Origin: an uncultured Carboxylicivirga sp.
GTDB lineage: Bacteria > Bacteroidota > Bacteroidia > Bacteroidales > Marinilabiliaceae
Reading direction: 5' to 3'
NCBI RefSeq assembly: GCF_963668385.1
Contig: NZ_OY764327.1
Span: 1,488,001-1,552,000, forward strand
Length of the DNA stretch: 64,000 nt
Numbering within the stretch: position 1 is the first letter of the stretch; every line of letters begins with the position of its first letter. The notes under the pieces were generated by a model. That model saw only the letters and a program-made list of their open reading frames with translations, did no database searches and was not told where the DNA came from. The position numbers were made by a program, and so were the translations under genes. Positions 13,102-37,289 of the stretch are shown piece by piece.

Positions 13102-13170
13102 TCAGTAATATAGGTAAGTGTTTCAGTAACTTTGGGTAGTTATTTAATTCAATATCATCCATTTTTGTAT
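13102..13170 (+). promoter_or_regulatory. Twin-box operator and promoter, site 1 of 4
   Basis: Two direct repeats, tcagtaatataggtaa at 13102 and tcagtaactttgggta at 13123, are 21 bp apart. A tTTTGTAT -7 core follows, with TTTG at 13164, exactly 41 bp after the start of the second box. The same spacing recurs at 18453, 23154 and 37222. Here the GGTA of the second box is shifted by one base. The site drives cyclophilin-like gene 1. Binding by an AraC-type activator is inferred from two-turn spacing of direct repeats. Confidence 0.7.
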
Positions 13171-13272
13171 AAGTCAAATTGACTGGATTTTTCATTTTGA
13201 TTGTTAAAACATTACTGTTCCTTAAATTATCATTTATTTCAATATCAGATATTACAATTAAAACATCATACA

Positions 13273-13623
13273 TTGATAATAACTATTGGAAATACCCGAT
13301 TAACCGCCACTCTGGCCGATAATTCATCCGCAGAGGAATTGAAAAAAAAGCTGGCGAAAAAACCTATTACGGTTAAAATGCGCGATTATGCAAACATGGA
13401 AAAAGTGGGTTTCTTAAAACGATTTCTTCCAAAAAATGATGAGCCAATTACAACCCAACCCGGTGATCTCATTTTGTACCATGGTTGTATGTTGGTAATC
13501 TATTATGCACCTAACACATATAATTTTACGCGTTTAGGTAAGATTGATAATATAACCCGCGAAAGTCTGATGGAATTACTGGGCAAAGGCAAAGTAAAAG
13601 TAACACTGTCGTTGGAGGAATAA
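13273..13623 (+). CDS. Cyclophilin-like fold protein, copy 1 (cytoplasmic)
   Basis: This protein of about 117 residues is one of four related genes in 11 kb. It carries the family signature: TATLADNSSAEELKKKL, MRDYANMEKVGFL, TTQPGDLILYHGCMLVIYY and FTRLGKIDNIT. The match is to the cyclophilin-like domain family typified by small bacterial single-domain proteins; the biochemical activity is unknown. There is no ATG in frame. The open frame runs back to 13201, but homology with copy 2 begins at ITIGNT, so TTG 13273 is the likely start, and no signal peptide is present. It is transcribed from twin-box promoter site 1. Confidence 0.75.
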   Translation: MIITIGNTRLTATLADNSSAEELKKKLAKKPITVKMRDYANMEKVGFLKRFLPKNDEPITTQPGDLILYHGCMLVIYYAPNTYNFTRLGKIDNITRESLMELLGKGKVKVTLSLEE

Positions 13624-13851
13624 ACTGTGTGAAGATAAAATCAACGTTTATAGCATTGTTTTTAAGGTCAAAAGCGAAAAAAGTAAGCGTTGATTATTTT
13701 AGACACTGAGATTTCAATTAGTTTTAGCCTCATTGTTGTATTCATGTTTCTAAACTATTAATCAGAATTTTAAAGTTACAGTTTATTATGCCCGAAGTTT
13801 TGATGAAAATTAGGCAGACTTCAGAATGTAAATCTAATCCGTTATTTGTTT

Positions 13852-13859
13852 TAGTTTTG
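13852..13859 (+). promoter_or_regulatory. -7 box immediately before the LysE-family gene
   Basis: The octamer tagttttg matches TAnnTTTG and ends only 5 bp before the ATG at 13865. If it is used, transcription starts at or next to the start codon and the mRNA is leaderless. No good -33 element is visible. Confidence 0.4.
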
Positions 13860-13864
13860 CATTA

Positions 13865-14479
13865 ATGGAAAATTATCTGTTAAAAGGTTTGGTGGTTGGA
13901 TTAATCTTTGGAGTTCCAGCCGGAGCAATTGGAGCTTTAACTATTCAACGAGCAATGCAACGAGGTTTCGTTGCAGGATTAATAACTGGTTTCGGTTCGT
14001 CGATTGCCGATGTGTTGTATGCCTGCGTAGGTGTATTTGGTATCACTTTAATTTCCAATTTTTTGGAATCCAATCAACAAATGATAAAATTAATAGGAGG
14101 TTTTCTTTTAATTACCATAGCGATTCCTATCTTCTTCAGTAAAAGAAAACAACCCGAAGACGATAAAACAAATAGTCGGTTTGTGCTGTATTTTCTTTCA
14201 TCCTTTTCGGTGGCCATATTAAACCCCGCTACAGTATTATCTTTTGTGGTAGCTTTCTCGTCATTCGGAATTTTTGGGCAATTAAATCTTCAGCATGGAG
14301 CTCAGCTAATTATTGGAATATTAGTGAGTACAGTTTTGTGGTGGGCAATGCTAAGTGGTTTGGTATGTTTTTTTCGAAATCGTATAAATGATTCTATTTA
14401 TCAATGGCTGAATTACATTTTGGCAACTGGTTTGGCTGCTTTTGGCCTTATTGTTATTATACAGTCTTTATTACAATAA
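13865..14479 (+). CDS. LysE-family amino-acid/metabolite exporter
   Basis: This 204-residue protein has about six membrane segments and the LysE/RhtB N-terminus (GLIFGVPAGAIGALTIQRAM, near residues 13-32), followed by GFGSSIADVLYA and the mid-protein NPATVLSFV. LysE proteins are inner-membrane exporters of amino acids and related compounds. Its end lies 3 bp from the end of the convergent TMEM175-like gene. An upstream -7 box almost touches the start codon, and the next in-frame ATG would remove the first conserved segment, so 13865 is the most plausible start. Confidence 0.9.
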   Translation: MENYLLKGLVVGLIFGVPAGAIGALTIQRAMQRGFVAGLITGFGSSIADVLYACVGVFGITLISNFLESNQQMIKLIGGFLLITIAIPIFFSKRKQPEDDKTNSRFVLYFLSSFSVAILNPATVLSFVVAFSSFGIFGQLNLQHGAQLIIGILVSTVLWWAMLSGLVCFFRNRINDSIYQWLNYILATGLAAFGLIVIIQSLLQ

Positions 14480-14482
14480 AAG

Positions 14483-15106: not shown

Positions 15107-15174
15107 GATTAATGAATTGGTTTGTGTGACCTAATTTAATATGAAAACCATCTGTGCATTATATTTGAATAATG

Positions 15175-15525: not shown

Positions 15526-15565
15526 CTGATACTATCCATTTTGACCGTTATTGCGAAAGTAGTAA

Positions 15566-15600
15566 ACTATATTTATTTTCACAACTATAAAAAATATAGT
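15566..15600. promoter_or_regulatory. Probable HxlR operator
   Basis: A perfect 9-bp inverted repeat, actatattt (15566-15574) with aaatatagt (15592-15600), plus a third half-site actata at 15584-15589, lies between the divergent hxlR and oxidoreductase genes. HxlR-family dimers bind similar AT-rich inverted repeats. Confidence 0.55.
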
Positions 15601-15620
15601 AAGAGTAAAGAGTTGAAAAT

Positions 15621-16703: not shown

Positions 16704-16750
16704 AAACTTTCAACTTCGGTTCTGATCATCTAATTGATTGGGATATTAAT

Positions 16751-16798
16751 GCTTAACTATCCGGTATTACTGACCTTTGTACCGGGTGGTTAGCTTTT
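16751..16798 (+). terminator. Probable terminator hairpin
   Basis: A stem pairs 16751-16766 with 16780-16794 through several G-T pairs and one bulge, followed by four T residues. It lies between the oxidoreductase and the DMT transporter. The T run is short, so partial read-through is possible. Confidence 0.5.
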
Positions 16799-16834
16799 GG
16801 CACGTTCGTGCATCATTCTTTTCAACTTCTTATT

Positions 16835-17737: not shown

Positions 17738-17771
17738 TTGTCCTATATTTAATACTAAAAAAAAGAAATAT

Positions 17772-18452: not shown

Positions 18453-18520
18453 TCTGTAATCTGGGTATGAGGCACCGTAATGCGGGTAGTTAGTTTCCAT
18501 TATAATGTCATTCTTTTGTA
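18453..18520 (+). promoter_or_regulatory. Twin-box operator and promoter, site 2 of 4
   Basis: Boxes tctgtaatctgggtat (18453) and accgtaatgcgggtag (18474) are 21 bp apart, and TTTGTA starts at 18515, exactly 41 bp after the second box start. The site precedes the DUF418 gene by about 90 bp and probably drives DUF418, the cyclophilin-like lipoprotein and the alpha/beta hydrolase up to the terminator at 21406. Confidence 0.72.
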
Positions 18521-18607: not shown

Positions 18608-19879
18608 ATGAGTATAAATAACCTTGCTAAAAAAGAAATAGCTCCAGTTAGTGGTAAGAATCGAATAGATTATATGGATCTGTTGAGGGGGATTGCTATT
18701 TTCTTTATTCTGATAGCTAATCTAAGGTGGTTTACATTGTATACTCCCGGTTTCGATGGCTATTTTGTTTTTCCGAAAATTGATCACTGGGTCCATCAAA
18801 TGCAACACGTATTTATTGAAGGCAAGTTTTACTCCATCTTCAGTTTGCTATTTGGATGGGGGATAGCACTTCAAATCAAAAGATCAAAAAAGGATGATGT
18901 ATCAACTGCCAAATTCTTACGCCGTCGATTGTCATTCATGTTGCTTTTAGGAGGTATTCATCTTTTCTTTATTTGGGAAGGCGATATAGTCTTTTTGTAC
19001 GGATTGGTTGGATTTGTGTTGGTTTCGCTTCGTAATTTTTCCAATCGAACCTTGCTTATTACCGGCATTCTATTGGTGTTATCACCCGTTTTATTGTACG
19101 TGCTAAAGATGAACCTACCATGGTTTAACTATCCATCAGAGTTTTTAACCCATATGGGAGAGAAGGTTTATCAGTTGAACGGATGGGTTGATCAGGATAC
19201 CAGCAGAACCGATGTGTTGCGAGATAGCAGAAGTATACTCACAACCATTGCCGTTACCTTGGCCGATGCTCCTTATCGTTTTGCTTATTTGTTTTTTGTG
19301 GGGCGCATACCAAAGGTTTTGGGAGCTATGTTGATTGGGTTTGTCATTGGTCGTGCCGAATTTTACTCAACCATTATGAAGCATAAGAAAGCAATGTTGT
19401 GGAGTAGCATAATTGGGTTACTCATTTTTGTTCCGTTGAATTATGTTTTGATTACCTATCTCGAAGACTCAACAGCCTATTATGCCTTGCAGATGAAAGG
19501 TTTTTATTATACAGCTGTATATGCTTTAAGTGTTTTTCCATTGGCCTTGGTATATATGATGATTATCGCCTTGTTGAATGAGGTACGAATTTTTCAAAAG
19601 TTATTTCACCCCGTTTTAGCAGTGGGGCGAACCGCTTTCACCAATTACATTATGCATAGTTTGGTTGGAATCGTTATCTTTTATGGGATTGGTTTTGGCA
19701 ATATGCAGCAATTAGGACCATTGGCCTGGACTATATTTGCAGTGATTTTGTTTGCTGTACAAATTGTGATAAGTAATGTGTGGTTGAAGTATTTCAAGTT
19801 TGGACCTGTAGAATGGCTTTGGCGTAGTATGACTTATCGAAAACTACAACTGATTGTAGTACAAAATGAGAATAAATAA
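18608..19879 (+). CDS. DUF418-family multi-pass membrane protein
   Basis: This 423-residue protein begins with the DUF418-associated segment YMDLLRGIAIFFILIANLRW and ends with the DUF418 domain (HPVLAVGRTAFTNYIMHSL near residue 340). There are about ten membrane segments. The family is related by hydropathy to acyltransferase-3-like membrane proteins, but its substrate is unknown. It is the first gene after twin-box promoter site 2 and lies 54 bp upstream of a cyclophilin-like lipoprotein gene, which ties it to the redox regulon. Confidence 0.88.
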   Translation: MSINNLAKKEIAPVSGKNRIDYMDLLRGIAIFFILIANLRWFTLYTPGFDGYFVFPKIDHWVHQMQHVFIEGKFYSIFSLLFGWGIALQIKRSKKDDVSTAKFLRRRLSFMLLLGGIHLFFIWEGDIVFLYGLVGFVLVSLRNFSNRTLLITGILLVLSPVLLYVLKMNLPWFNYPSEFLTHMGEKVYQLNGWVDQDTSRTDVLRDSRSILTTIAVTLADAPYRFAYLFFVGRIPKVLGAMLIGFVIGRAEFYSTIMKHKKAMLWSSIIGLLIFVPLNYVLITYLEDSTAYYALQMKGFYYTAVYALSVFPLALVYMMIIALLNEVRIFQKLFHPVLAVGRTAFTNYIMHSLVGIVIFYGIGFGNMQQLGPLAWTIFAVILFAVQIVISNVWLKYFKFGPVEWLWRSMTYRKLQLIVVQNENK

Positions 19880-19933
19880 AATTACTATATTTTACCTTAA
19901 CGAAGCGCCAGATTTTAACCTTATAAAAATTCA

Positions 19934-20446
19934 ATGGTCATGATAAAAAAAGCACTTTTTCTTTTCAGCACACTTATGATTTTAACAGCATCGTGCTCAG
20001 GGGAAGATAACAACTCGGTTATCGATGATGATAATAATGGAACAGAAGTGCCCGATGAGGATGGAGATAATGATAAAAACTCAAATAGTATGATACTTAC
20101 AATTGGTAACACAACCTTAACTGCAACTTTGGCCGATAATTCGTCGGTTGATGCTTTGGTTGAAGATTTAAAGAAAGGGCCTATTAGTGTGGATATGCGC
20201 GACTATGGCAATATGGAAAAAGTGGGTGATCTGGGTAAAAGCTATCCACGCAACGATGTATCTATCACCACTGAGCCCGGCGATATTATTTTATATCAGG
20301 GAAGTGCCCTGGTAATTTATTATGCACCTAACTCATGGAGTTTTACCCGCTTGGGTAAAATAGATGATATTACTCAGCAAGAGTTGAAAGATGTTTTGGG
20401 AAATGGTGATGTAACGGTTACTCTATCGCTATCCGACGAAGATTAG
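19934..20446 (+). CDS. Cyclophilin-like fold lipoprotein, copy 2
   Basis: This 170-residue protein has a lipoprotein signal peptide with lipobox TASC (Cys21), an acidic D/N-rich linker (about residues 24-55) of the kind that favours surface export of Bacteroidota lipoproteins, and then the cyclophilin-like domain: TATLADNSSVDALVEDL, MRDYGNMEKVGDL, TTEPGDIILYQGSALVIYY, FTRLGKIDDIT. It is closely related to copies 1 and 3 and less so to copy 4. ATG 19940 is an equally possible start. It lies between DUF418 and an exported hydrolase in one probable operon. Confidence 0.85.
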   Translation: MVMIKKALFLFSTLMILTASCSGEDNNSVIDDDNNGTEVPDEDGDNDKNSNSMILTIGNTTLTATLADNSSVDALVEDLKKGPISVDMRDYGNMEKVGDLGKSYPRNDVSITTEPGDIILYQGSALVIYYAPNSWSFTRLGKIDDITQQELKDVLGNGDVTVTLSLSDED

Positions 20447-20486
20447 TAATCAATAATGTAAAGTCTAACTTGAAATATATAGACAA

Positions 20487-21344
20487 ATGAAAAAATTCAA
20501 TCAATCAATACTCGTACTATTTTTAATATCAATCATGTTTAGCTGTACTAATAAACCACAAAAAAGCACTTCGGTTAATGGTTTACAAGCCGAAACCAAA
20601 GCGGTTGAAATCAATGGTGCTGTTGGTAAACTCAAAGCGATATTAGAAATACCTGAAGTAGAAAACGATGTATGTCCGTTGGTTATATTGATGCACGGTT
20701 TTATGTCATCTAAAAATGATCAGCTTATAACTGCTGTTGCAAATGAGCTAAAAGCAAAAGGTATGGCATCCATTCGTTTCGATTTTGACGGACATGGCGA
20801 GAGTGATGGTGAATTTGTTAAAATGACAGTGCCGTTGGAAGTTAAAGATGCTTTGGCAGTTTTTGAATATGCCAAAACACTGGATTTTGTTTCAGACATT
20901 AGCTTACTAGGACATTCTCAAGGTGGTGTTGTTACCTCGTTGGTGGCTGGCGAATTAAACGATGCCGTAAAAAGTGTTGTGTTAATGGCTCCTGCAGCTG
21001 TTTTGGTTGATGATGCAAAAAACGGAACTGTAATGGGGGTTAAGTACGATCCTGTTAATGTACCCGAATATGTTGACGTATATAATCATAAGTTAGGACG
21101 CGACTATATTCAATCGGCTCAACAATTGGATATTTATGGAAAGGCAGCAGGATACAAAGGAGTTGTTTGTTTGATTCATGGTAAGGCCGATCGTATAGTT
21201 CCTTTCTCATATAGCGAAAGATATAACGAGACTTACAACAATAGCACACTTCACTTATTCGAAAACGAAAACCATATGTTTAGTGTCAATACCAAGCTGG
21301 CTGTTGATACTGCTGTTGATTTTTTAGTGAATCAAAATAAATAG
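20487..21344 (+). CDS. Exported alpha/beta hydrolase, lipoprotein
   Basis: This 285-residue protein has a lipoprotein signal peptide (lipobox ending at FSC near residue 20) and an alpha/beta hydrolase fold: oxyanion region LMHGFMSSKND, DFDGHGESDGEF, nucleophile Ser in LLGHSQGG, Asp in HGKADRIVPF and His in ENENHMFS. It is a serine esterase or acylhydrolase of the envelope; the substrate is unknown. It is the last gene of the site-2 operon and is followed by a strong terminator. A second hydrolase of another subgroup closes the site-4 operon. Confidence 0.9.
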   Translation: MKKFNQSILVLFLISIMFSCTNKPQKSTSVNGLQAETKAVEINGAVGKLKAILEIPEVENDVCPLVILMHGFMSSKNDQLITAVANELKAKGMASIRFDFDGHGESDGEFVKMTVPLEVKDALAVFEYAKTLDFVSDISLLGHSQGGVVTSLVAGELNDAVKSVVLMAPAAVLVDDAKNGTVMGVKYDPVNVPEYVDVYNHKLGRDYIQSAQQLDIYGKAAGYKGVVCLIHGKADRIVPFSYSERYNETYNNSTLHLFENENHMFSVNTKLAVDTAVDFLVNQNK

Positions 21345-23153: not shown

Positions 23154-23221
23154 TCCGTAATCTTGGTAGATGCCTCCGTAATCTAGGTATATATCTTTTG
23201 TGTTTTCTAACGAAATTTGTA
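23154..23221 (+). promoter_or_regulatory. Twin-box operator and promoter, site 3 of 4
   Basis: Boxes tccgtaatcttggtag (23154) and tccgtaatctaggtat (23175) are 21 bp apart and match at 14 of 16 positions, the best-conserved pair. TTTGTA starts at 23216, exactly 41 bp after the second box start. The secreted cyclophilin-like gene begins 41 bp after that core. Confidence 0.75.
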
Positions 23222-23261: not shown

Positions 23262-23933
23262 ATGAAAATTACTTACACCATTTTCTTATCCATTGCTTTC
23301 AGCTTTATAGCCAATTTAATTTCGGCTCAACAACAAAAAATCAAATTAACCATCAATAACCAAACCGAACTAACCGCAACAATGGTTGATAATTCATCAG
23401 TGGATGCTTTACTGGAACTGATAGAGAACGGTCCGCTGACCATAGCTATGAGTGATTATGGGAACATGGAAAAAGTTGGACCCATTGGCACTACCTTACC
23501 TCGTAATGATGAATCAATAACAACCGAGCCTGGCGACATTATCTTGTATCAGGGAAGTGCTTTAGTTATTTATTACAAACCTAACACTTGGAGTTTTACT
23601 CGACTTGGAAAAATTGATAATGTAACACAAACAGAATTGCAAAATATTTTGGGTACGGGAGATGTCACTGTTACATTAGAATTAGACGATTCAGCTACAC
23701 CTGTTGATGAGGTGCCTCAAAATCAGTTTCAGATTTATCCCAACCCTGTTGACAATTGGTTACAGGTATCCGGATCTTTTCAAAGCCTTTCAATCGTTGA
23801 TATTAGTGGTCAGGAGGTAATGAGATCTGTAAATGATCGGGTGAATGTAAGCGGACTAAAATCAGGATTGTATTTTTTGAAAATAGAAGTGAGCCATAAT
23901 GAAACGGTTATCCGGAGGTTTATTAAAAAATAG
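23262..23933 (+). CDS. Secreted cyclophilin-like fold protein with T9SS sorting domain, copy 3
   Basis: This 223-residue protein has a Sec signal peptide ending near NLISAQ, one cyclophilin-like domain (TATMVDNSSVDALLELI, MSDYGNMEKVGPI, TTEPGDIILYQGSALVIYY, FTRLGKIDNVT), and a C-terminal type A T9SS domain of about 75 residues (FQIYPNPVDNWLQVSG ... GLKSGLYFLKIEV ... ending RRFIKK). The Por/type IX system should export it to the cell surface or medium. It is driven by twin-box site 3. Having one domain as cytosolic, lipoprotein and T9SS-secreted forms is unusual and points to a function needed in several compartments. Confidence 0.88.
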   Translation: MKITYTIFLSIAFSFIANLISAQQQKIKLTINNQTELTATMVDNSSVDALLELIENGPLTIAMSDYGNMEKVGPIGTTLPRNDESITTEPGDIILYQGSALVIYYKPNTWSFTRLGKIDNVTQTELQNILGTGDVTVTLELDDSATPVDEVPQNQFQIYPNPVDNWLQVSGSFQSLSIVDISGQEVMRSVNDRVNVSGLKSGLYFLKIEVSHNETVIRRFIKK

Positions 23934-24247: not shown

Positions 24248-24601
24248 ATGAAGATTAAAATAACCATTAATAACAATGAATTCGCAGCAACATTGAACGA
24301 TAGTGAAGCTGCCAAAGATTTTGCCTCGTTATTTCCAATGACTGCCAAACTAAACGATTATGCACGAACCGAAAAGGTTTGTGATTTAAGCAAACGTCTT
24401 AGCACAGCTGGTTCACCATCGGGATGTTCTGCTAAAACGGGTGATATCACCTGCTATTCTCCATGGGGTAATCTGGCCATTTTTTATAAAAGCTTTGGTT
24501 ATGCTCAAGGGCTAATCAATTTAGGTAAGATAGATGGCGACATGAAGCAGTTTGCTTCGGCATGCGACAAAGGGGATGCAACATTTGAATTGATCGATTA
24601 A
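24248..24601 (+). CDS. Cyclophilin-like fold protein, copy 4 (cytoplasmic, divergent)
   Basis: This 117-residue protein starts directly with the first strand of the domain (MKIKITINNNEFAATLNDSE) and has no signal peptide. It keeps the family outline (LNDYARTEKVCDLSKRL, KTGDITCYSPWGNLAIFYKS, GLINLGKIDGDM) but has three extra Cys residues (in VCDLS, SGCSAK, ITCY) and a different C-terminal half, so it is the most diverged copy. Its stop overlaps the start of the acetyltransferase gene by one base, indicating translational coupling. It begins a long co-directional run of redox genes up to 28869. Confidence 0.83.
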   Translation: MKIKITINNNEFAATLNDSEAAKDFASLFPMTAKLNDYARTEKVCDLSKRLSTAGSPSGCSAKTGDITCYSPWGNLAIFYKSFGYAQGLINLGKIDGDMKQFASACDKGDATFELID

Positions 24602-25143: not shown

Positions 25144-25159
25144 ATTATAACCGTATATT

Positions 25160-25882
25160 ATGAAGATCAACAAAACTCAATTTCTGCTGATTCTCGCTAC
25201 TTTTTTTACCTTTTCGTGTACCGCAAATGCAAAAGAAGATCATTTGGATGCCAAGCAAAAGAACATGGTGGCTATTTCGAGCTACACTGCGCAAGGTAAG
25301 ATGCCTGAATTAACAAAAGCTTTAAACGATGGCCTTGATGCCGGACTTACCATTAACGAAATTAACGAAGCATTGGTGCAGCTATATGCCTATTGCGGAT
25401 TTCCTAGAAGTTTAAATGGAATTCATGCTTTGATGGGTGTTGTGAAAGACAGAGAAGCCAAAGGCATTACTGATGAGCAAGGGAAAGAAATACAGATGCA
25501 TAGTCAAACCGGCGATCGTTACGAAAGAGGGCGTTTGGTGTTGGAAGAACTAACAAAAACACCGCAAGCAAAACCAGCTCCCGGCTTTGGTGAGTTTTCG
25601 CCTCGTATTGATGCCTTTTTGAAAGAACATTTGTTTGCCGATATATTCGAAAGTGATGTACTAAGCTATCAACAGCGCGAGTTGATAACCAATGCCGCCT
25701 TGGCTTCTATGTCGGGCGCCGAATCGCAGTTGGGGGCTCATATTCATTTTGGAATAAATGTTGGCATTACCGAAGGGCAATTAAACGACATGTTTACTAT
25801 CATCGAAAAAACAGTTGGTAAAGACGAAGCCAACAGCGGAAGAGCCGTTTTAAGCAAAGTGCTTGAAATGAGAAATAAGTAA
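25160..25882 (+). CDS. Exported carboxymuconolactone decarboxylase-like protein (lipoprotein)
   Basis: This 240-residue protein has a lipoprotein-type signal peptide (FFTFSC near residue 20) and two CMD-like alpha-helical domains: residues about 35-100 with LNDGLDAGLTINEINEAL and YAYCGFPRSLNGI, and residues about 170-235 with QRELITNAALASMSG and LGAHIHFGINVGIT. The AhpD-type CxxC pair is absent, so a classical peroxidase-reductase role is unlikely. It is paired with an exported cupin 32 bp downstream, and the same pair occurs without signal peptides at 37344-38524. Confidence 0.88.
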   Translation: MKINKTQFLLILATFFTFSCTANAKEDHLDAKQKNMVAISSYTAQGKMPELTKALNDGLDAGLTINEINEALVQLYAYCGFPRSLNGIHALMGVVKDREAKGITDEQGKEIQMHSQTGDRYERGRLVLEELTKTPQAKPAPGFGEFSPRIDAFLKEHLFADIFESDVLSYQQRELITNAALASMSGAESQLGAHIHFGINVGITEGQLNDMFTIIEKTVGKDEANSGRAVLSKVLEMRNK

Positions 25883-25914
25883 CAAAACAATAACAACGAT
25901 AAATTAAAAAACAT

Positions 25915-26442
25915 ATGAAACGAAGTATATCAAATACCTTTTTAGCCTTAGGCGTACTGTTTATTGCCTACTCTTGTAATCAACCTACATCTAATACTCA
26001 AAGTACTGAAGTAACAGCAGAAGTTGTAAAAGAAATGGATCCAATCTTCACCCAAAATCCGGCACCCGAAGCTTTTATATCTAAATTCTTTACCGGAAAG
26101 GTAGGGGTAAATATGATGTTGAAAAACGACGAGAACAATGAGTATTCGATTGCTAATGTGGTTTTCGATCCTGAAGCACGTACCAATTGGCACACTCATC
26201 CTAAAGGACAAGTATTGTTAGTATTAGCGGGCGAAGGTTTTTACAAAGCCGAAGGTCAACCCGTTCAAAAACTAAAAAAGGGTGATGTGGTAAATATTCC
26301 TCCACATGTAAATCACTGGCATGGAGCTGCAGCAGGTAGTAAATTTGTTCATGTGGCACTTACCAATTATAAAGATGGTCAAAATGTTATCTGGGGTGAT
26401 GCGGTAAGCGACGAGGATTATACAAGTGTATTGGCTGAATAA
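25915..26442 (+). CDS. Exported cupin-domain lipoprotein
   Basis: This 175-residue protein has a lipoprotein signal (LFIAYSC near residue 21) and a single cupin with the metal-binding motif TNWHTHPKGQ (two His), the conserved Glu in AGEGFYKAEG, and the second motif His pair in VNHWHG. Small cupins of this type accompany CMD-like proteins in aldehyde and quinone detoxification clusters. Its cytosolic counterpart is at 38129, with matching KLKKGDVVNIPPHVNHWHGA versus KLNPGDTVNIPAGVNHWHGA. It is followed 6 bp later by flavodoxin. Confidence 0.9.
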   Translation: MKRSISNTFLALGVLFIAYSCNQPTSNTQSTEVTAEVVKEMDPIFTQNPAPEAFISKFFTGKVGVNMMLKNDENNEYSIANVVFDPEARTNWHTHPKGQVLLVLAGEGFYKAEGQPVQKLKKGDVVNIPPHVNHWHGAAAGSKFVHVALTNYKDGQNVIWGDAVSDEDYTSVLAE

Positions 26443-26448
26443 TCGATA

Positions 26449-26943
26449 ATGAGTTCAGAGACAAATAATGGCAATTGTTTGGTTGCTTATTTTTCGTGGA
26501 GTGGGAATACTTTTACTATTGCCAAACAAATTGCCGGACTGGTGGGTGGAGATCTTTTTGAGATTAAGCCCATCGATTCCTATTCGCAAAACTATGGTGA
26601 GGTTGTTAAGCGTGCCCGTCAGGAGATTAAAATGGGTGAAACACCTGAATTGGTGAAACAAAAAGAGCAGATAGAAAAATACGATGTTGTTTTTATCGGC
26701 TATCCTAATTGGTGTAATACTTTTCCAGCGCCTGTTTTAACATTTCTAACAACACATGATTTGAAGGATAAAAAGGTGATTCCGTTTTGCACGCACGGTG
26801 GAGGTGGAGTAGGACGAAGTTTTTCAGAGTTAGCAAAACAATGTATTGATTCAGAAGTTTTAAAAGGGATTTCTATTGATGGATACGCTGTTAATGATAA
26901 CAATGTTGAAGTAAAAGATTGGATTGAAAAATTAACCATATGA
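26449..26943 (+). CDS. Flavodoxin
   Basis: This 164-residue protein has the flavodoxin FMN-phosphate loop near its start (VAYFSWSGNTFTIAKQIA), the second FMN contact region VFIGYPNWCNTFPAPV, and the third FCTHGGGGVGRSFSEL. It belongs to the flavodoxin_4-like group common in redox operons with cupins and aldo/keto reductases. It supplies or accepts electrons in the cytoplasm. It overlaps the next gene by 4 bp, so coupling is likely. Confidence 0.92.
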   Translation: MSSETNNGNCLVAYFSWSGNTFTIAKQIAGLVGGDLFEIKPIDSYSQNYGEVVKRARQEIKMGETPELVKQKEQIEKYDVVFIGYPNWCNTFPAPVLTFLTTHDLKDKKVIPFCTHGGGGVGRSFSELAKQCIDSEVLKGISIDGYAVNDNNVEVKDWIEKLTI

Positions 26944-27497
26944 GTGAGACTATTTTTGAAAGAATGCAATCCGGTGAAGTGGTTCCGTTTGCCGATCCTC
27001 AGTATGCCGAGGTAAGTAAATCGGGAATTCGAACGCTTGAGTTGCTTGTAAAATATAATGCCACATCAGATCCTGACCAATTGAGAAAGCTATGGGGTGA
27101 ATTGTCTGGTGAGGCATTGGATGCCACAAGTTATATACAAATTCCTTTAATGGTCAATCATGCCGAATTTGTAAAGGTGGGTAAGAATGTATATATCAAT
27201 CATGCCTGTTCAATGTTGGCTTTGGGTACTATCACTGTAGAAGATGATGTGTTAATAGGGCCTAAATGTAACTTAATCACCGAAGGTCATCCGGTTGATC
27301 CAAACAATAGAAAGGCTTTGGAGGTGAAACCGGTGGTGATTAAGAAGAATGCCTGGTTGGGTGCAGGTGTAACTATTTTACCTGGAGTAACAGTTGGGGA
27401 GAATTCCATTGTTGCTGCCGGAGCCGTTGTTAATAAAGATGTTCCTGCCAATTCGGTTGTTGCAGGTATTCCTGCTAAAGTTATCAAAGAGATTTAA
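26940..27497 (+). CDS. Hexapeptide-repeat O-acetyltransferase, copy 2
   Basis: This 185-residue protein has an N-terminal helical cap (IFERMQSGEVVPFADPQYAE) followed by hexapeptide turns (VYINHACSMLALGTITVEDD, AWLGAGVTILPGVTVGENSI) and catalytic His in TEGHPVDPNNRK. It is an acetyl-CoA-dependent sugar O-acetyltransferase-like enzyme. It is a close tandem duplicate of the next gene and shares the same N-terminal cap, which copy 1 lacks. It overlaps flavodoxin by 4 bp. Confidence 0.9.
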   Translation: MSETIFERMQSGEVVPFADPQYAEVSKSGIRTLELLVKYNATSDPDQLRKLWGELSGEALDATSYIQIPLMVNHAEFVKVGKNVYINHACSMLALGTITVEDDVLIGPKCNLITEGHPVDPNNRKALEVKPVVIKKNAWLGAGVTILPGVTVGENSIVAAGAVVNKDVPANSVVAGIPAKVIKEI

Positions 27498-27519
27498 TAA
27501 GTATTACGCAATCAGCGTT

Positions 27520-28092
27520 ATGAAAAACAATCCATCTAAAAATATTTTTGATCGATTACAGGCCGGAGAGGCCGTTCCTTATTCCGATCCAAGTCATAGT
27601 CAGATAGCTGATGCAGCTGCTCGTACCACAAAGTTATTGATAGAACTTAATGCCACAGCCGACAATGATAAAGTACGCCAGTTATGGGGCGAAATGTCGG
27701 GCGAAGCATTGGATGATAGTAGCATGATTCAGATACCTGTTTACGTGAATATTGGCAAGTTTACGCGAATTGGCAAAAATGTGTATATCAATCATCTGTG
27801 TTCTATGCTTGATATGGGAACCATCACCATTGGAGACGATGTGTTGATTGGTCCCAAAGTGAATATACTAACCGAAGATCATCCTGTAAAACCATCGGAA
27901 CGTAAGGCTTTAATGGCAAGACCTGTGGTTATTAAAAACGGAGCGTGGATAGGTGCGGGGGCAACCATTTTACCCGGGGTAACAGTAGGTGAGAATTCGG
28001 TGGTGGCCGCAGTAGCTGTGGTAAACAAAGATGTGCCACCCAATACGGTAGTGGGTGGTATGCCGGCAAAAGTCATTAAAGAATTAGAATAA
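27520..28092 (+). CDS. Hexapeptide-repeat O-acetyltransferase, copy 3
   Basis: This 190-residue protein has the same cap (IFDRLQAGEAVPYSDPSHSQ) and repeats (VYINHLCSMLDMGTITIGDD, AWIGAGATILPGVTVGENSV) as copy 2, with His in TEDHPVKPSERK. The similarity along the whole length marks it as a tandem gene duplication. The start is ATG 27520; the open frame extends upstream into copy 2 but the homology begins here. The cluster therefore has three such enzymes in under 4 kb. Confidence 0.9.
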   Translation: MKNNPSKNIFDRLQAGEAVPYSDPSHSQIADAAARTTKLLIELNATADNDKVRQLWGEMSGEALDDSSMIQIPVYVNIGKFTRIGKNVYINHLCSMLDMGTITIGDDVLIGPKVNILTEDHPVKPSERKALMARPVVIKNGAWIGAGATILPGVTVGENSVVAAVAVVNKDVPPNTVVGGMPAKVIKELE

Positions 28093-28107
28093 GCAAATTA
28101 AGAGTTT

Positions 28108-28869
28108 ATGTCACGAGTATTTATAACAGGATCGACTGATGGATTAGGCCTTTTGGCTGCTCAAAAGTTAATAGATCATGGACACCAGGTAGTGTTGCAC
28201 GCCCGCAATGATAAACGAGCTAAGTCTGCAATTGATAAAGCACCAGGGGCTGAAAAAGTTCTAATTGGAGACTTGTCCTTTATAAATGAGACCAAGGAGT
28301 TGGCATATAAAGTAAATGAGTTAGGAAAGTTTGATGCTGTTATCCATAATGCAGGAATCTTGCATGTTGAAGAGAAAGCAAAAAGTAAGGATGGAGTTCC
28401 TCTTTTATTTGCTGTAAATACCATGGCACCATACATTCTTACAGCATTAATTCATCCTCCAAAAAGATTAGTTTACACCTGTTCGAGTATGCATCGGCAG
28501 GGTGATGCTCGCGAAACAAAATTGGAAGCGTTAGCTAATGGAAAAGCCTTTCCGAGTTATTCCGATACTAAGCTACACGATTTGATATTAGCATTGGCTG
28601 TTCAGCGTCAATGGCCTGATGTTGTTACAAATGCAGTAGATCCGGGTTGGGTACCTACCAAGATGGGCGGGGCTGGGGCTCGTGATGATTTACATAAAGG
28701 GTACGAAACACAAATTTGGTTAGCCACTTCTACAGATGAAAAGTCATTAAAAGGTGGTCGGCTATTGTTTCATCAAAAAGAAGTTGATTTTAATCCACAG
28801 GCAAAAGATATCATTATACAGAATAAATTACTGTCGGTATGTGAACAAATTTCAGGAGTGAAAATTTAG
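28108..28869 (+). CDS. Short-chain dehydrogenase/reductase
   Basis: This 253-residue protein is a classical-type SDR: cofactor loop FITGSTDGLGLLAAQ near the N-terminus, NAG motif in VIHNAGILHVEE, catalytic Ser in YTCSSMHRQ and the YxxxK pair in PSYSDTKLHD. An Arg in LHARNDKR after strand 2 suggests NADPH preference. It follows the acetyltransferases by 15 bp and precedes a Tat-signal alcohol dehydrogenase by 21 bp, so it is part of the same run of carbonyl-reducing enzymes. Confidence 0.93.
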   Translation: MSRVFITGSTDGLGLLAAQKLIDHGHQVVLHARNDKRAKSAIDKAPGAEKVLIGDLSFINETKELAYKVNELGKFDAVIHNAGILHVEEKAKSKDGVPLLFAVNTMAPYILTALIHPPKRLVYTCSSMHRQGDARETKLEALANGKAFPSYSDTKLHDLILALAVQRQWPDVVTNAVDPGWVPTKMGGAGARDDLHKGYETQIWLATSTDEKSLKGGRLLFHQKEVDFNPQAKDIIIQNKLLSVCEQISGVKI

Positions 28870-28890
28870 TATTCAATTAAAACACCAAAC

Positions 28891-30081
28891 ATGAAAGAAG
28901 ACAAAAAAAGTATTCAGGAAAATCAGCAATCCAGAAGAGATTTTATTAAAAAATCAGCCATTGCAGGTGTAGGTGCATCATTATTATTAAACAATCCGGT
29001 TCCGGTGTTTGGTAGTAATGCGAATAAGAATATTAAGTCGAAAGGTTATGCCGCGTTTGATACATCGGGTATATTAAAACCTTGGGAGTTTGAACGTCGA
29101 CCGGTTGGTGATAATGATGTTTTGATTGATGTAAAATATGCAAGTATTTGTCATTCCGATATTCATCAGATGAAAGGACACTGGGGACCACAGCAATATC
29201 CTCAGATACCTGGTCACGAAATTGTAGGTATTGTAGCAGCTGTTGGAAAAAATGTGACCAAGTTTAAAGTGGGTGATCGTGCCGGTGTAGGTTGTATGGT
29301 TGATAGCTGTATGGTGTGTGATAACTGTAAACACGGTGATGAGCATTACTGTGAGAACGGCCAAACACTATTTACATACGGATATCCCGATAAAAAATCG
29401 CCTACAGGAATTACACAAGGTGGATATGCAACCAATATTGTTGTGCGTGATCATTTTGCCGTTCATATTCCTGATCATATATCACTTCAGGAAGCTGCAC
29501 CACTGTTGTGTGCCGGTATTACTACTTATTCTCCTTTGATGAAGGCAGATTTTAAGATTGGCGATAAAGTAGGAGTAGCCGGAATTGGAGGACTAGGTCA
29601 TATGGCAGTTAAACTAGCTGTTTCAAAAGGAGCCGAAGTGTATGCCTTTACTACTTCGCCCGATAAAGTAGAAGATATCAAATCGTGGGGTGCAAAAGAA
29701 GTTATTGTTGTTGATAGCGCAGATAAATTGCAGCCTATGAGAGGAAAACTGGATTATATGATTTCAACAATCCCTTATGAATACGATATTTCATCATATG
29801 CTAGCTGTGTAAGACCCAATGGACATTATACGCAGGTTGGAGTTCCTGTAGGCGGACAGTTAACTATTAATACATTCAGTCTCATGTTCAGCCGTGTCAA
29901 CCTTAATGTTTCATTAATTGGAGGTATTCCTGAGACTCAGGAAGTGGTTCATTATTGTGCAGATAATGATGTTAAGCCTCAAATAGAAATGATTAGTGGA
30001 GAGCAGATTAATGAGGCATGGGAGAATGTTGTCAATAAGAAAGCCCGCTACCGCTATGTGATTGATACTGCAACTTTTTAA
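28891..30081 (+). CDS. Zinc-dependent alcohol dehydrogenase with Tat signal (YahK-like)
   Basis: This 396-residue protein is a medium-chain zinc alcohol dehydrogenase: catalytic zinc ligands in ASICHSDIHQMKGHWG and PGHEIVGIV, four structural-zinc Cys residues in CMVDSCMVCDNCKHGDEHYC, and the nucleotide loop GIGGLGHMAVKLAV. It resembles NADPH-dependent aldehyde reductases of the YahK/cinnamyl type. The unusual part is a long N-terminus with a twin-arginine signal (QSRRDFIKKSAIAGVGASLL), predicting export of the folded, cofactor-loaded enzyme. It follows the SDR by 21 bp. Confidence 0.92.
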   Translation: MKEDKKSIQENQQSRRDFIKKSAIAGVGASLLLNNPVPVFGSNANKNIKSKGYAAFDTSGILKPWEFERRPVGDNDVLIDVKYASICHSDIHQMKGHWGPQQYPQIPGHEIVGIVAAVGKNVTKFKVGDRAGVGCMVDSCMVCDNCKHGDEHYCENGQTLFTYGYPDKKSPTGITQGGYATNIVVRDHFAVHIPDHISLQEAAPLLCAGITTYSPLMKADFKIGDKVGVAGIGGLGHMAVKLAVSKGAEVYAFTTSPDKVEDIKSWGAKEVIVVDSADKLQPMRGKLDYMISTIPYEYDISSYASCVRPNGHYTQVGVPVGGQLTINTFSLMFSRVNLNVSLIGGIPETQEVVHYCADNDVKPQIEMISGEQINEAWENVVNKKARYRYVIDTATF

Positions 30082-30118
30082 TGAAATAAAACAAGCTTGG
30101 TCTCTATTGTGCCAGTTC

Positions 30119-30149
30119 GGCGAAGCCAAAAGCTTTTGCGGCTCGAGCG
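30119..30149 (+). repeat. Dispersed REP-like element, copy B
   Basis: This 31-bp motif is 26/31 identical to 24183-24213. Its core agccaaaagcttttgcggct is close to a perfect palindrome (stem aaaagc/gctttt). It lies in the gap between the alcohol dehydrogenase and aldo/keto reductase genes. Confidence 0.55.
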
Positions 30150-30297
30150 ATAAAAATAAAGTAAAAGATTGCTCTAGTACAATAACGGCGAGATATTAAA
30201 TAAAATATTAATCAAGTATGTTGATGTTTGCAGGTAAATTGCTGGAATAAACTTCTGCCTTCTGCCTGTAAAACTTACATATTTAAAACATTAAATT

Positions 30298-31164
30298 ATG
30301 ATTTTACAAGAAAAATATACTTTATCAAACGGAGTTGAAATTCCAAAATTAGGATTAGGAACCTGGTTTATTAGCGACGAAGATTCAGTACAAGCTGTAA
30401 AAGATGCAGTAGAGTTAGGCTATCGTCATATTGATACCGCTCAAGCTTATCAAAACGAGCGAGGTGTTGGCGAAGGCATCAGAACCTGTGGTGTTGCGCG
30501 CGAAGAGCTTTTTGTAACCACTAAGCTGGCAGCTGAGATTAAATCGTACGACGAAGCTGTGGCTTCCATCAATAATTCGTTAAAAGTAATGGGATTGGAT
30601 TACCTTGATATGATGATTATTCACAGTCCTAGACCATGGATGGAATTTCACGAAGAAGATCCATTCTTTGAGGGCAACCGCGAAGCATGGCGTGCTCTTG
30701 AAGATGCTTACAAAGCAGGAAAAATAAAAGCCATCGGTCTTTCTAATTTTCAGAAAGAAGATCTTGATAATATTCTTGAGTCGTGCACGGTTAAACCAAT
30801 GGTGAATCAGATTTTGGCTCACATTAGTAATACACCTAAAGAGTTGATTGCTTATTCTCAGGAAAAAGGAATGTTGGTGGAAGCCTATTCTCCGGTAGCT
30901 CATGGTGAGTTGATGAAAAATGAGGATGTGAAGAAAATGGCTGAGAAATATGGCGTTTCGGTTCCTCAGTTATCAATCCGCTATTGTTTGGAACTGGGCT
31001 TATTGCCTTTGCCAAAGACAGCTAATCCGGCACATATGCAAAACAATGCTGAACTGGATTTTGAAATTTCAAAAGAAGATATGGAAGTTTTAAAATCGGT
31101 AGAAACCATCAAAGACTACGGCGAATCGAGTATGTTTCCTGTCTACGGAGGAAAACTAAAATAA
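30298..31164 (+). CDS. Aldo/keto reductase (DkgA-like)
   Basis: This 288-residue NADPH-dependent reductase starts with PKLGLGTWFI and shows the catalytic residues Asp46 and Tyr51 in HIDTAQAYQNERGVGEGI, the Lys in TTKLAAEI and the His in MIIHSPRPW. The C-terminal cofactor region LPLPKTANPAHMQNNAE is also present. The family reduces aldehydes and ketones, including 2,5-diketogluconate and methylglyoxal. It is preceded by the REP-like element and followed by a hairpin, so it may be a single transcription unit in the redox region. Confidence 0.93.
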   Translation: MILQEKYTLSNGVEIPKLGLGTWFISDEDSVQAVKDAVELGYRHIDTAQAYQNERGVGEGIRTCGVAREELFVTTKLAAEIKSYDEAVASINNSLKVMGLDYLDMMIIHSPRPWMEFHEEDPFFEGNREAWRALEDAYKAGKIKAIGLSNFQKEDLDNILESCTVKPMVNQILAHISNTPKELIAYSQEKGMLVEAYSPVAHGELMKNEDVKKMAEKYGVSVPQLSIRYCLELGLLPLPKTANPAHMQNNAELDFEISKEDMEVLKSVETIKDYGESSMFPVYGGKLK

Positions 31165-36100: not shown

Positions 36101-36546
36101 ATGAGGATAACATATTTGGTGTTGATGTAGATGATGCTGATGGTTATATGTGGGTTAGGTGTGATCATGATTATGAGGAAACCGGAGGATACGAACAACA
36201 ATTTCAACCTTTTACTTCCGGCGATTATGCTGCTATTGTTTATAACGATGGATGCGTGGATACAACTCAATGTGTTACCTATGTTAGTACTTTGATAGAG
36301 AAGAACAATACTCAAATAATTGCATATCCTAATCCTTCGGATGGGATTGTTCAATTTGAATTAAATAAGATGTATAACCGGTTGAGGGTAGATGTCTATA
36401 ATATATCAAACCAGCTGGTTGAAAATTATGAGTTTTCAGATAAAAGTCAATTTAAACTGAATTTATCACAGTACAGAGGAACCTATTTTGTTGTTTTAAG
36501 AAATGATGGTGGAATAGTACAAGTTTTTAAACTATTCTTGAAATAA
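33118..36546 (+). CDS. Large T9SS-secreted protein with beta-sandwich and beta-propeller-like repeats
   Basis: This 1142-residue protein has a Sec signal peptide ending NNLNAQ, an N-terminal part of about 350 residues resembling PKD/Ig-like repeats (Cys-containing strands such as CPNSSLTFINLGDP), a middle part (about 380-850) of SBBP-like repeats built around V(A/V)KYDKDGMYQWS, and a type A T9SS sorting domain at the end (IAYPNPSDGIVQFELN). The last residues, VFKLFLK, fit the T9SS terminus. It is probably a surface-attached adhesin or matrix protein. No enzyme motif was seen. Confidence 0.88.
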   Translation: MKCANLISIMILMFLFVNNLNAQDEEKPYTDFVLPESHLCPNSSLTFINLGDPANTYRWVIDRNDTIETYNLQTEFETANYHRIELISDSATYTNSIAKYIAIYDTPSNYVSKTFSDSVVCRGSEVKITLNNPVGTTYYGFWDQLGNLVEEKKAGYYSKLYLSGGPVVDDCYRILTAKNQCAMVVVDTFDIRIKSSPKGNLEYAMKDSFFCNQGQPLIDVFNSETQVKYSVSYKYKDRYTHTYTSDIQKGNADKLSFEMPEIDASNRFDIICVDTTTNCKLTFHTDTVVIDTVRADFKVALLNGYINEPILFSDNSLCSPSLSWSFPETAQIRNSSQSALTNSFSTIGTHTVKLLNETKLGCVDSIEHTVFINDTTYFPKAGWVVTGGRNEGWVGTNHEPCFDVDVNGNVFIAGDFRAIESMSTAFNSTKGIDLDEQQKEGSFVAMYDKFGMLRWYNLIQTNYGDRADIHCVKTIDGSKMLVSSNARLFHSSNGKIIPWKTGCYVAEYDNQGLLVDTIPSHGAVYAIEQDMNQNLYLLSVLSDTCYITKRDTEKQILWTVKYPNTYTNGFVPPRMAVDNEGSLLVEGCFTKDMNVYAVNNTFTLNYSRTYTGKYGYDDIYLMKFNTDGEYQWGNIAFTATTTSDFDYGIDVTVDDDLGVYLVGRPSTNNNIILTSSDMSRDTLDAQNYFLAKYDKDGMYQWSVGAKMQPDKYRYWVRGERIITGLNNNLYVLGYVKHNCTFTSTDVSTNFLFDKEDKEHFFIANYSNDGVLKNVWLSPKSNVNTGDLALDNEGNFLMLSYNISYQRDFEILNTTVSLKEEEYLLTKLNPKFSKDTISMVDFNTGEFCKNDAFDLNFETNTSLAAKQQYVVELSDPFGSFKMANVVGSIITDNESSTIQCQLPNTVVEGDAYRLRLANLTSGSISKNNGTDITIHTLDANVKEESLSICSYDSVLINNQYFKEDGIYFDTLESTLGCDTLVAIDLKKIELEANIIDEDNIFGVDVDDADGYMWVRCDHDYEETGGYEQQFQPFTSGDYAAIVYNDGCVDTTQCVTYVSTLIEKNNTQIIAYPNPSDGIVQFELNKMYNRLRVDVYNISNQLVENYEFSDKSQFKLNLSQYRGTYFVVLRNDGGIVQVFKLFLK

Positions 36547-36607
36547 TCTTAATTGACTAATTCCGATCTTTCTTGGAATTTTAGATAGATCAAAGGTAAT
36601 TGCATAA

Positions 36608-36661
36608 GAGGGTGTTAAAAATGTATATTTTGTATTCAAAAAATACTTTTTTAACACCCTC
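36608..36661. terminator. Bidirectional terminator hairpin between convergent genes
   Basis: A perfect 13-bp stem (gagggtgttaaaa at 36608-36620 with 36649-36661) has A-rich and T-rich flanks and an internal gtatt/aatac pair. It serves the T9SS gene on the plus strand and probably the oxidase-like gene on the minus strand. Confidence 0.75.
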
Positions 36662-36710
36662 ATTTTTGTGTCGCAGATTTATTAGAAAGTGTAATTATAC
36701 TACTTTGCAT

Positions 36711-37109
36711 TTACCCTATTTTCTTACCGGCCATTGGACCTGGTTTAAGGCTGTGAATCTCTTCTATATGAACCAAAACAACTCCTTTGGGTTTTGGCAT
36801 TCCCATTTTTAACGACATCTCGGCAGATTTTTCATAAATAGGTCCATCAGTTAATAACTCTGGTGTACCAATAAAACGATATCCATCTACCACATCACGA
36901 TTAACAACAGCCGTTACAATCTTAGATCCATCTAATATATTCTGATAGGTTCTTCCTCCAACACCCTCGCTAAAAATTAAGGTTTCATCATCAAAAACTC
37001 GTGTAGAACGTTTGGGAGCGTTGTTGGGGAAACCATCTTTACTAACCGTAGCATGAAAACACTGCTGCGACATAATCATCTCCTTCATTTCAGTTGTTAG
37101 TGTTGCCAT
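36711..37109 (-). CDS. Pyridoxamine 5'-phosphate oxidase-family protein
   Basis: This 132-residue protein has the split-barrel FMN-binding fold of small PNPOx-like proteins: CFHATVSKDGFPNNAPKRST at the start, then LIFSEGVGGRTYQNIL and VTAVVNRDVVDGYRFIGTPE. It is more likely an FMN- or F420-type oxidoreductase than a true PdxH, which is longer. It is divergent from the CMD/cupin/hydrolase operon, and the twin-box operator at 37222 lies in the shared 234-bp region, so it may belong to the same response. Confidence 0.87.
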   Translation of the reverse strand: MATLTTEMKEMIMSQQCFHATVSKDGFPNNAPKRSTRVFDDETLIFSEGVGGRTYQNILDGSKIVTAVVNRDVVDGYRFIGTPELLTDGPIYEKSAEMSLKMGMPKPKGVVLVHIEEIHSLKPGPMAGKKIG

Positions 37110-37221
37110 ATTTTGTCTTTTAAATTAAACGTATAAAGTTGAGTTCTAAGTTATGGCTTTTGATTTGTTTAGTTTTTTACAAATGATAAAAAAGACCTAA
37201 TCATGACTCTTTTTTCTGTAT

Positions 37222-37289
37222 TCAGTAAAAGTGGTAAGTCATTCCGTTAAAATGGTAAATCTATCCAATAGATTATTCTGACTTTTGTA
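37222..37289 (+). promoter_or_regulatory. Twin-box operator and promoter, site 4 of 4
   Basis: Boxes tcagtaaaagtggtaa (37222) and tccgttaaaatggtaa (37243) are 21 bp apart, and TTTGTA starts at 37284, exactly 41 bp after the second box start. The CMD-like gene begins 60 bp after the TTTG. Confidence 0.72.

Follow-up and report, generated by a model that had tools for sequence, protein, structure and literature searches.

Twin direct repeats in a Carboxylicivirga genome as putative operators of an AraC-family activator

Introduction

The AraC protein of Escherichia coli has a direct-repeat operator with a spacing of about 21 bp, next to the promoter. MarA and SoxS are small activators without a sensor domain, and the E. 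coli aldehyde reductase gene yqhD is of the Fe-type. MarA-type promoters fall into two classes: in class II a forward site lies over the -35 region and the -35 element is lost, and in class I a reverse site lies further upstream (PMC10268841). YqhC of E. coli is an AraC-type activator encoded beside yqhD and the aldo/keto reductase gene dkgA, and it carries an AraC-N type region (PMC8262776). TAnnTTTG at -7 is given as the housekeeping-type element in PMC7366714. Here we describe a set of paired boxes that may be the operators of one AraC-family activator. A first-pass annotation of this DNA had called the regulon undescribed, and indeed no account of it was found among the open-licence PMC papers searched.

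Four twin boxes and their putative targets

The window (the whole stretch of 64,000 nt analysed here) has four twin-box sites on its forward strand, at 13102, 18453, 23154 and 37222 (coordinates re-checked). All four follow the pattern TCNGTAA-N4-GGTA with the two boxes 21 bp apart, with TTTGTA, in all four, placed 41 bp from the first base of box 2 (at 13164, 18515, 23216, and 37284). They are intergenic, between plausible-gene ORFs of at least 80 aa. This much had been claimed before and holds at 4/4 sites. The earlier pattern, however, had a 5-nt spacer between GTAA and GGTA; the spacer is 4 nt, and the 5-nt version has zero matches genome-wide.

Twin box 1 (13102..13138, + strand, forward orientation; boxes 13102-13117 and 13123-13138) scores 45.4 bits, and its box at 13123 is the sole one with GGTA shifted by one. 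It is followed by the -7 element CAttTTTG (13160..13167, +). Twin box 2 (18453..18489, +; boxes 18453-18468 and 18474-18489) scores 42.7 bits; here the box at 18474 starts with ACC, and the -7 element is TTctTTTG (18511..18518, +). Twin box 3 (23154..23190, +; boxes 23154-23169 and 23175-23190) is the top match of the window at 47.3 bits and precedes GAaaTTTG (23212..23219, +). Twin box 4 (37222..37258, +; boxes 37222-37237 and 37243-37258), at 44.7 bits, has GTTA in the box at 37243 and precedes GActTTTG (37280..37287, +). The offset is 41 in each case.

It is clear that these sites are far above chance. With leave-one-out matrices, each built from three sites, none of the 127,924 non-site positions in the window scores as high as the held-out site. 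When all four sites make up the matrix, they score 34.4-44.2, the top non-site place at spacing 21 scores 9.5 in the window, and the maximum over 60 synthetic Markov-1 windows is 13.1. With this matrix all other spacings between 17 and 26 stay below a score of 20 in the window, and no pair at spacings 10, 11, 31 or 32 exceeds 13 in the window and eight scanned stretches.

What do the twin boxes precede? Behind twin box 1 is a cyclophilin-like gene (PF18050; 13201..13623, +). Behind twin box 2 is a unit of three genes (18608..21344, +), assumed to be co-transcribed, that encode a DUF418 protein (18608-19879, +), a cyclophilin-like protein (19934-20446, +) and an alpha/beta hydrolase (20487-21344, +). 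Behind twin box 3 is the gene for a cyclophilin-like protein with a T9SS sorting tail (23262..23933, +). The genes that follow it (24248..31164, +) encode cyclophilin-like, acetyltransferase, CMD-like, cupin, flavodoxin, SDR, zinc-ADH-like and aldo/keto reductase proteins; the name rests on Pfam for 24248-24601 and on the translations for the rest. The window scan found no twin box ahead of 24248, and read-through from 23154 into these genes is possible. The unit behind twin box 4 (37344..39603, +) consists of CMD (37344-38102), cupin (38129-38524) and S15/alpha-beta hydrolase (38536-39603) genes. The first-pass annotation had listed three cyclophilin-like units and a CMD/cupin/hydrolase operon, which is correct except that the unit behind 18453 opens with DUF418 and has its cyclophilin-like gene second.

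Sites across the genome and two promoter geometries

A genome-wide scan, which the first-pass annotation had proposed as a check, bears the pattern out. With at most one mismatch the pattern matches at 13 places genome-wide and its reversed control at 1. Four of these 13 lie inside long ORFs and lack TTTG at offset 41 or 42, and therefore look like chance. Allowing three mismatches is too loose: it gives 79 + 97 matches, fewer than the 152 + 150 of the control. The search was therefore made with patterns of up to 1-2 mismatches and then with a 69-position model. This yields 13 twin-box sites in the genome, 10 of them within 62 kb. The 13th site has E=1.5e-4 and the following match 0.014, a gap to be read with the knowledge that 11 of the 13 sites trained the model. 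The four units first proposed are thus only part of the set.

Nor is there a single promoter architecture. The forward geometry holds at all four window sites, but genome-wide there are two. At forward sites the distance between the box 2 start and the -7 element is 41-42 bp, and the element mostly reads [G/C]AnnTTTG. In the reverse orientation, seen at the genome's own araC gene (below) and at one Fe-dehydrogenase gene, a consensus TAnnTTTG lies 42-43 bp past the site edge. The fourth base before TTTG is G/C in 9/11 forward cases and T in 2/2 reverse cases; the rule is broken at 18453 and 5571550. The latter site overlaps one gene at its end and is followed by the gene of a cobalt-type ABC ATPase, which would be an unexpected target. 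Site 1483616 belongs to the Fe-dehydrogenase gene and has no forward TTTG. Site 1485377 lies 30 bp past a second AraC gene (1484559-1485347).

The forward geometry supports a placement of box 2 at the presumed -33 element position. By position, and with transcription starts assumed, forward sites over the -35/-33 position and reverse sites upstream agree with the MarA-type rules for class II and class I. Direct repeats about two turns apart that abut a promoter are also what is expected of AraC/XylS-family operators.

A candidate regulator

The first-pass annotation suspected AraC-type control of one regulon and advised a search for an AraC-family gene beside other sites. The suspicion is supported. 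However, the annotation, made from the letters of the window alone, also held that the regulator was not encoded nearby, which does not stand. A gene for a 298-aa AraC-family protein (genome G000:C1:1480680-1481576, - strand) lies outside the window, 6.4 kb to its left and ~20 kb from the first window site. It has its own twin box just upstream of its start (genome 1481641-1481676), a pairing kept in orthologs phylum-wide, and a second twin box directly downstream. Its own operator has a 20-bp spacing, from which the other 12 sites differ, and no forward TTTG. This putative regulator is most likely the one that acts at all twin boxes.

The protein has a C-terminal double helix-turn-helix (HTH_18) at 75.1 bits against a cut-off of 33.6, and HTH_18 is found in 7/7 members examined. 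Its N-terminal region has no Pfam match above cut-off; AraC_binding appears in 3/7 members, with a best E of 0.0046. A model of one ortholog (L070; pLDDT 82.6, pTM 0.60) predicts a cupin-like regulatory domain and a double HTH. Compared with the regulatory domains of RhaR and AraC it gives a target-normalised TM of 0.58-0.74. The top fold-search matches, full-length Rns, CsvR and ToxT, have a TM of about 0.3, which indicates shared architecture only. Cys56 of the predicted cupin-like domain is near-invariant (80/81 sequences) and may be a sensor residue. Membership of the YqhC subfamily was considered and rejected: the AraC-N type region of YqhC, which we take to be PF06719, is absent in 7/7 members even at E<=1.

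Conservation in the Bacteroidota

Among 80 orthologous loci in named Bacteroidota genomes, 68 have an above-threshold twin box within 500 bp upstream of araC, by a matrix trained on 12 own-genome sites only. Eleven of the remaining 12 have a weaker twin box 62-84 bp upstream of araC, and in the twelfth the contig ends there. The boxes also follow the ortholog. Among 60 genomes, counting our own, 7 have an ortholog with 58% identity or more, and 7/7 of these contain sites at E<=1e-4, as against 1/53 of the rest; G040 has a site yet no ortholog at E<=1e-40. In relatives, 30 of 44 AraC matches were made into loci, 23 of them below 58% identity; among these more distant copies 2/23 (L049 and L058) reach a score of 18 with the matrix. 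Inspection upstream of 18 distant loci (43-55% identity) showed weak boxes by eye in L046, L049 and L058. On plasmids, with 61 matching records, four loci were fetched; the box is present in 4/4, each time with TTTG at 42. A Spirosoma plasmid has araC within the gene row behind a forward box, and a Parabacteroides plasmid has araC faced by one.

The two geometries recur in these loci. Of the 68 near-araC sites, 53 have TTTG on the target side at 41-42 (15 lack a forward TTTG) and 50 have it on the araC side at 42-43 (18 lack a reverse one); 41 have both and 6 have neither. The random expectation at either of two offsets is 0.0146. Other twin boxes in ortholog loci have a forward TTTG in 16/17 cases. 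The fourth base before TTTG is G/C in 48/53 forward and T in 50/50 reverse cases. In many relatives one operator sits between araC and a target gene. Neighbours homologous to own-genome targets are also frequent (AKR in 54 of the 80 loci, cupin in 39, CMD in 30).

Proposed mechanism and alternatives

We consider it likely that a single AraC-family activator, the product of 1480680-1481576, uses the twin boxes as its operators, with class II forward targets and a class I reverse araC under positive autoregulation. The sites, their geometry, the tracking of araC and the identity of its neighbours come from sequence; binding, the dimer, activation and the inducer we infer. The protein would bind as a dimer, with each subunit on one of the two direct repeats. 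In the forward orientation it would take over the -33 contact and recruit polymerase to the degraded -7 element (mostly [G/C]AnnTTTG), because box 2 sits at the -33 element position, and the result would be class II promoters for the detoxification enzymes. In the reverse orientation the operator would act from further upstream of a consensus TAnnTTTG promoter, class I-like, at araC and the one Fe-dehydrogenase gene. Since that operator would serve the promoter of araC itself, positive autoregulation would follow. Many relatives have just one operator between araC and a neighbouring target gene, and there it would serve the promoters on both sides.

An aldehyde or another electrophile is the probable inducer, and the predicted cupin-like domain at the N-terminus would bind it. 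The target enzymes (aldo/keto reductases, Fe-dehydrogenase, CMD, cupin, hydrolases, and cyclophilin-like proteins) suggest aldehyde or electrophile detoxification. The response suspected earlier thus fits the targets, but its inducer is a guess.

Might this be a Bacteroidota-wide electrophile response? Tentatively, and with the balance somewhat against it, one operator would fire two divergent promoters at once, its orientation deciding how far away the -7 element lies and with which base that element begins (G/C at class II targets, T at class I araC), with Cys56 maybe the sensor. Targets would then be wholly activator-dependent, and araC would keep a basal level and then amplify itself.

What if the same AraC protein acts on the same sites, but represses araC from the reverse placement and activates at forward promoters only? 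Class I and class II are told apart here by position, and an operator in the reverse placement might just as well repress. In E. coli, AraC is a repressor at the promoter of its own gene, and regulators of this family often repress themselves; the consensus -7 element in front of araC (50/50) could fire unaided. However, 50/68 loci keep the 42-43 bp, even though the ATG lies at varying distances from the site (57 to 83 bp in 67/68, 165 in the remaining one), and this suits polymerase contact better than plain blocking. Both plasmid arrangements, araC in a row behind a forward box and araC facing one, suggest positive autoregulation, and the Fe-dehydrogenase gene also uses the reverse form. Repression of araC is therefore unlikely.

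Very improbable is another regulator on the boxes, be it the second AraC (genome 1484559-1485347), the AraC of the window (59595-60473) or an HxlR protein (15175-15525). All three are near the cluster, and the second AraC gene has site 1485377 just behind it. However, the two AraC genes were set aside at just 21% and 19% identity to the candidate, the boxes track the candidate's orthologs through the phylum, and to our knowledge HxlR proteins are not expected on long direct repeats. That a special sigma factor recognises the boxes as promoter elements is hardly credible: the fixed distance from box to -7 element would fit, but an activator is better suited by two whole direct repeats 21 bp apart, by one element used in both orientations at different distances and by a housekeeping-type TTTG (PMC7366714 gives TAnnTTTG at -7). 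Functionless copies left by gene duplication deserve next to no weight, for although three of the four units have related cyclophilin-like genes, spacers and flanks differ while boxes and geometry are kept, and unrelated target families share the boxes.

The preferred reading, an activator at both placements, would connect a gene set seen in many Bacteroidota, where activators are poorly known, with a regulator, its operator and a list of targets. It offers a readable rule for the activator dependence of the Bacteroidota promoter. With G/C replacing the first T of TAnnTTTG, the need for that base is directly testable. It also gives a concrete stress context for uncharacterised cyclophilin-like (PF18050), DUF418 and DUF3737 proteins.

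Comparison with known systems

The candidate resembles E. coli AraC (araC-araBAD) in its divergent promoters, in direct repeats spaced by about 21 bp beside the promoter, and in a double HTH joined to what is predicted to be a cupin-like N-domain. However, the fold matches of its ortholog to E. coli AraC are partial, domain by domain, and it scores 46.9 bits on the NCBIfam AraC equivalog against a cut-off of 208. It is like YqhC in being a putative AraC-type activator beside such reductases (PMC8262776), but the regulon here is larger. The likeness to MarA/SoxS is in placement, with a forward site at the -35/-33 position and a reverse site further upstream, and in the lost -35 element of class II (PMC10268841). 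MarA and SoxS use single boxes and sigma-70, whereas here the boxes are paired and a regulator of predicted cupin type is combined with the Bacteroidota -7 element. Also unlike MarA/SoxS, the -7 element itself differs between the orientations, and often one operator stands for two promoters.

Twin boxes in the window and across the genome

The twin-box set is a real regulon. The first-pass annotation had described four promoters in the window, at 13102, 18453, 23154 and 37222, each with two direct boxes 21 bp apart and TTTGTA starting 41 bp past the start of box 2. All four positions are confirmed in the sequence, as are this geometry and the restriction to intergenic DNA. The exact unit is TCNGTAA-N4-GGTA in a 21-bp repeat. 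When each site in turn was scored with a matrix from the other three, it topped all 127,924 non-site window positions. The four-site matrix gives the sites 34.4-44.2 versus 9.5 for the next place at the same spacing; its best score in 60 Markov-1 synthetic windows was 13.1, and among spacings 17-26 only 21 yields scores of 20 or more. An IS256-family transposase gene (window 21789-22988) lies inside the cluster, between hydrolase 20487-21344 and site 23154.

Across the 6.27-Mb genome, in which the window spans C1:1488001-1552000, the boxes-only pattern with at most one mismatch matches 13 times, versus once for a reversed control. Nine matches were accepted as sites; one of them, 5571550, shares its position with the final bases of a gene. 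Four, all within long ORFs and lacking TTTG at 41 or 42, were rejected. A 69-position model finds 13 sites at E<=1.5e-4, the next match coming only at 0.014; it was built from 11 sites, so that 11 of the 13 match by construction and only 1483616 and 1481641 are outside the training set. Ten sites fall within 1463-1525 kb and three at 5.33-5.58 Mb.

In the window, the genes directly downstream are cyclophilin-like (13201 and 23262), DUF418/cyclophilin-like/hydrolase (18608) and CMD/cupin/hydrolase (37344). Elsewhere, the site at 1463 kb precedes the gene of a metallo-beta-lactamase-fold protein, those at 1468 and 5577 kb each an aldo/keto reductase gene, and that at 1480 kb genes for an Fe-dehydrogenase and an aldo/keto reductase. 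At 1485 kb the target is DUF3737 and the genes after it, at 5333 kb an alpha/beta hydrolase, and at 5571 kb a cobalt-type ABC ATPase together with a drug-efflux-like MFS protein; the names at 5333, 5571 and 5577 kb were read from translations. The remaining two sites front an araC gene and a second Fe-dehydrogenase gene (1482348-1483517). The gene overlapped by the 5571-kb twin box (L035 9482-9550) is CbiQ-like, and the ABC ATPase and MFS efflux-like genes in front of this box, all named by reading, are unlike the other targets. At the 1485-kb site (L032), a second, distant AraC-family gene (14559-15347) ends 30 bp ahead of the twin box at 15377, which faces a DUF3737 gene and then MalY-like and MATE-like genes (the last two named by reading).

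The probable regulator and its relatives

The genome has 38 HTH_18 matches. It had been proposed that the regulator is not encoded near the sites, and this proposal has to be abandoned. The araC gene (genome 1480680-1481576, minus strand) lies 6.4 kb left of the window. Some 65 bp ahead of its start stands a twin box of its own, spaced at 20 bp (1481641-1481676); another lies between araC and the Fe-dehydrogenase gene that it precedes. Judged by conservation, its product is most likely the regulon's regulator. Orthologs with 55-81% identity, the best 80 of at least 584 relatives, come from genomes including Mangrovibacterium, Mucilaginibacter, Chryseobacterium, Flavobacterium, Bacteroides and Alistipes. 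When scored with a matrix built solely from sites of the own genome, 68 of these best 80 have a twin box above 20 within 500 bp upstream of araC. Eleven of the 12 below threshold have their best upstream match (10.9-19.8) in the same place, at 62-84 bp; at the twelfth, L085, no upstream sequence is present. At 58 of the 80 loci, a divergent gene within 800 bp encodes a homolog of a protein from the own-genome regulon; in 39 of the 58 this is an aldo/keto reductase. Because the gene across the site varies, the twin box tracks araC rather than one target.

In 60 genomes, own included and possibly of the same species in part, all 7 whose araC ortholog reaches 58% identity have sites at E<=1e-4, as does 1 of the other 53, under a model trained on own-genome sites plus ortholog loci and stricter filters that lose weak matches. 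The exception, genome G040, has a site with TTTG at 41 fronting a hydrolase 72% identical to the window 38536 product. All four plasmid araC loci examined, of 61 matching records, have a twin box. The araC system is patchy within the genus: among 13 congeners (G001-G013), an ortholog reaching 58% identity is present in G006 alone, while the copies in ten are all at 52% or less and two have none at 1e-40.

A proposed two-way operator

By its sequence, the twin box reads as a two-way operator with a promoter grammar specific to orientation. On the target side (forward), TTTG starts 41 bp (7 loci) or 42 bp (46 loci) from the start of box 2, a total of 53 out of 68. In the reverse direction, towards araC, it starts 42 bp (44 loci) or 43 bp (6 loci) past the outer edge of box 1, or 50 of 68. 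Both spacings are found at 41 of the 68 loci and neither at 6; chance expectation for TTTG at either of two offsets is 0.0146. Site-to-ATG distance is more variable (57-83 bp in 67 loci, 165 in one). Of the 13 own-genome sites, 11 are forward (offset 41 in 10, 42 in 1), and the two reverse sites, those of araC and Fe-dehydrogenase 1482348-1483517, both have offset 43. The fourth base before TTTG is G or C in forward -7 elements (48/53 relatives, 9/11 own sites) and T in reverse ones (50/50 and 2/2). With loci that share ancestry, the Fisher value for this contrast makes them look more independent than they are. Locus L202, on a Parabacteroides plasmid, carries two back-to-back twin boxes (3825-3937; scores 33.3 and 17.5), one per direction, which separate araC from a hydrolase/DUF3737/MalY gene row and both have TTTG at 42.

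The Bacteroidota promoter is described in PMC7366714 as TAnnTTTG at -7 with TTTG near -33; the paper adds that Flavobacterium johnsoniae yielded no -33 motif. If the transcription start is placed 7 nt past the T that opens TTTG, as in the first-pass annotation, a forward box 2 occupies roughly -48 to -33 and a reverse site roughly -51 to -87. In the forward form, box 2 would take over the -33 contact, and the AraC protein would activate from both positions. It is possible that the reverse site represses araC. On a Spirosoma plasmid a single forward box precedes the gene row MBL-araC-CMD-AKR, and on a Parabacteroides plasmid a forward box faces araC; these arrangements support positive autoregulation of araC.

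The probable signal

The targets include aldo/keto reductases, Fe-dehydrogenases, CMD and cupin proteins, which by analogy suggests aldehydes or other electrophiles as the signal, as in the YqhC-yqhD-dkgA system outlined in PMC8262776. Going by its domains, the protein is not a YqhC, and no NCBIfam family reaches its cut-off among the 25 matches listed of 30. In the predicted model of the Mangrovibacterium ortholog the N-domain is rich in beta structure, there are long helices, and the C-terminal domain, which is helical, matches AraC-type HTH structures. Of the 81 sequences compared, 80 have the N-domain residue Cys56, 73 have Cys141 and 75 have Cys172, a pattern with which thiol sensing would be compatible.

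Comparison with known systems

AraC-type activation is a known kind of regulation. Within reach of a search of the open-licence PMC literature, no description came up of the combination of features or of its spread through Bacteroidota, which is consistent with calling the regulon undescribed. A close parallel is with MarA/SoxS/RamA. As set out in PMC10268841, class II promoters have forward sites over a -35 element that is lost, class I promoters have reverse sites further upstream, and 17 of 36 promoters belong to neither class. By position, the twin-box regulon follows the same rule of orientation and distance, forward near the promoter and reverse further upstream.
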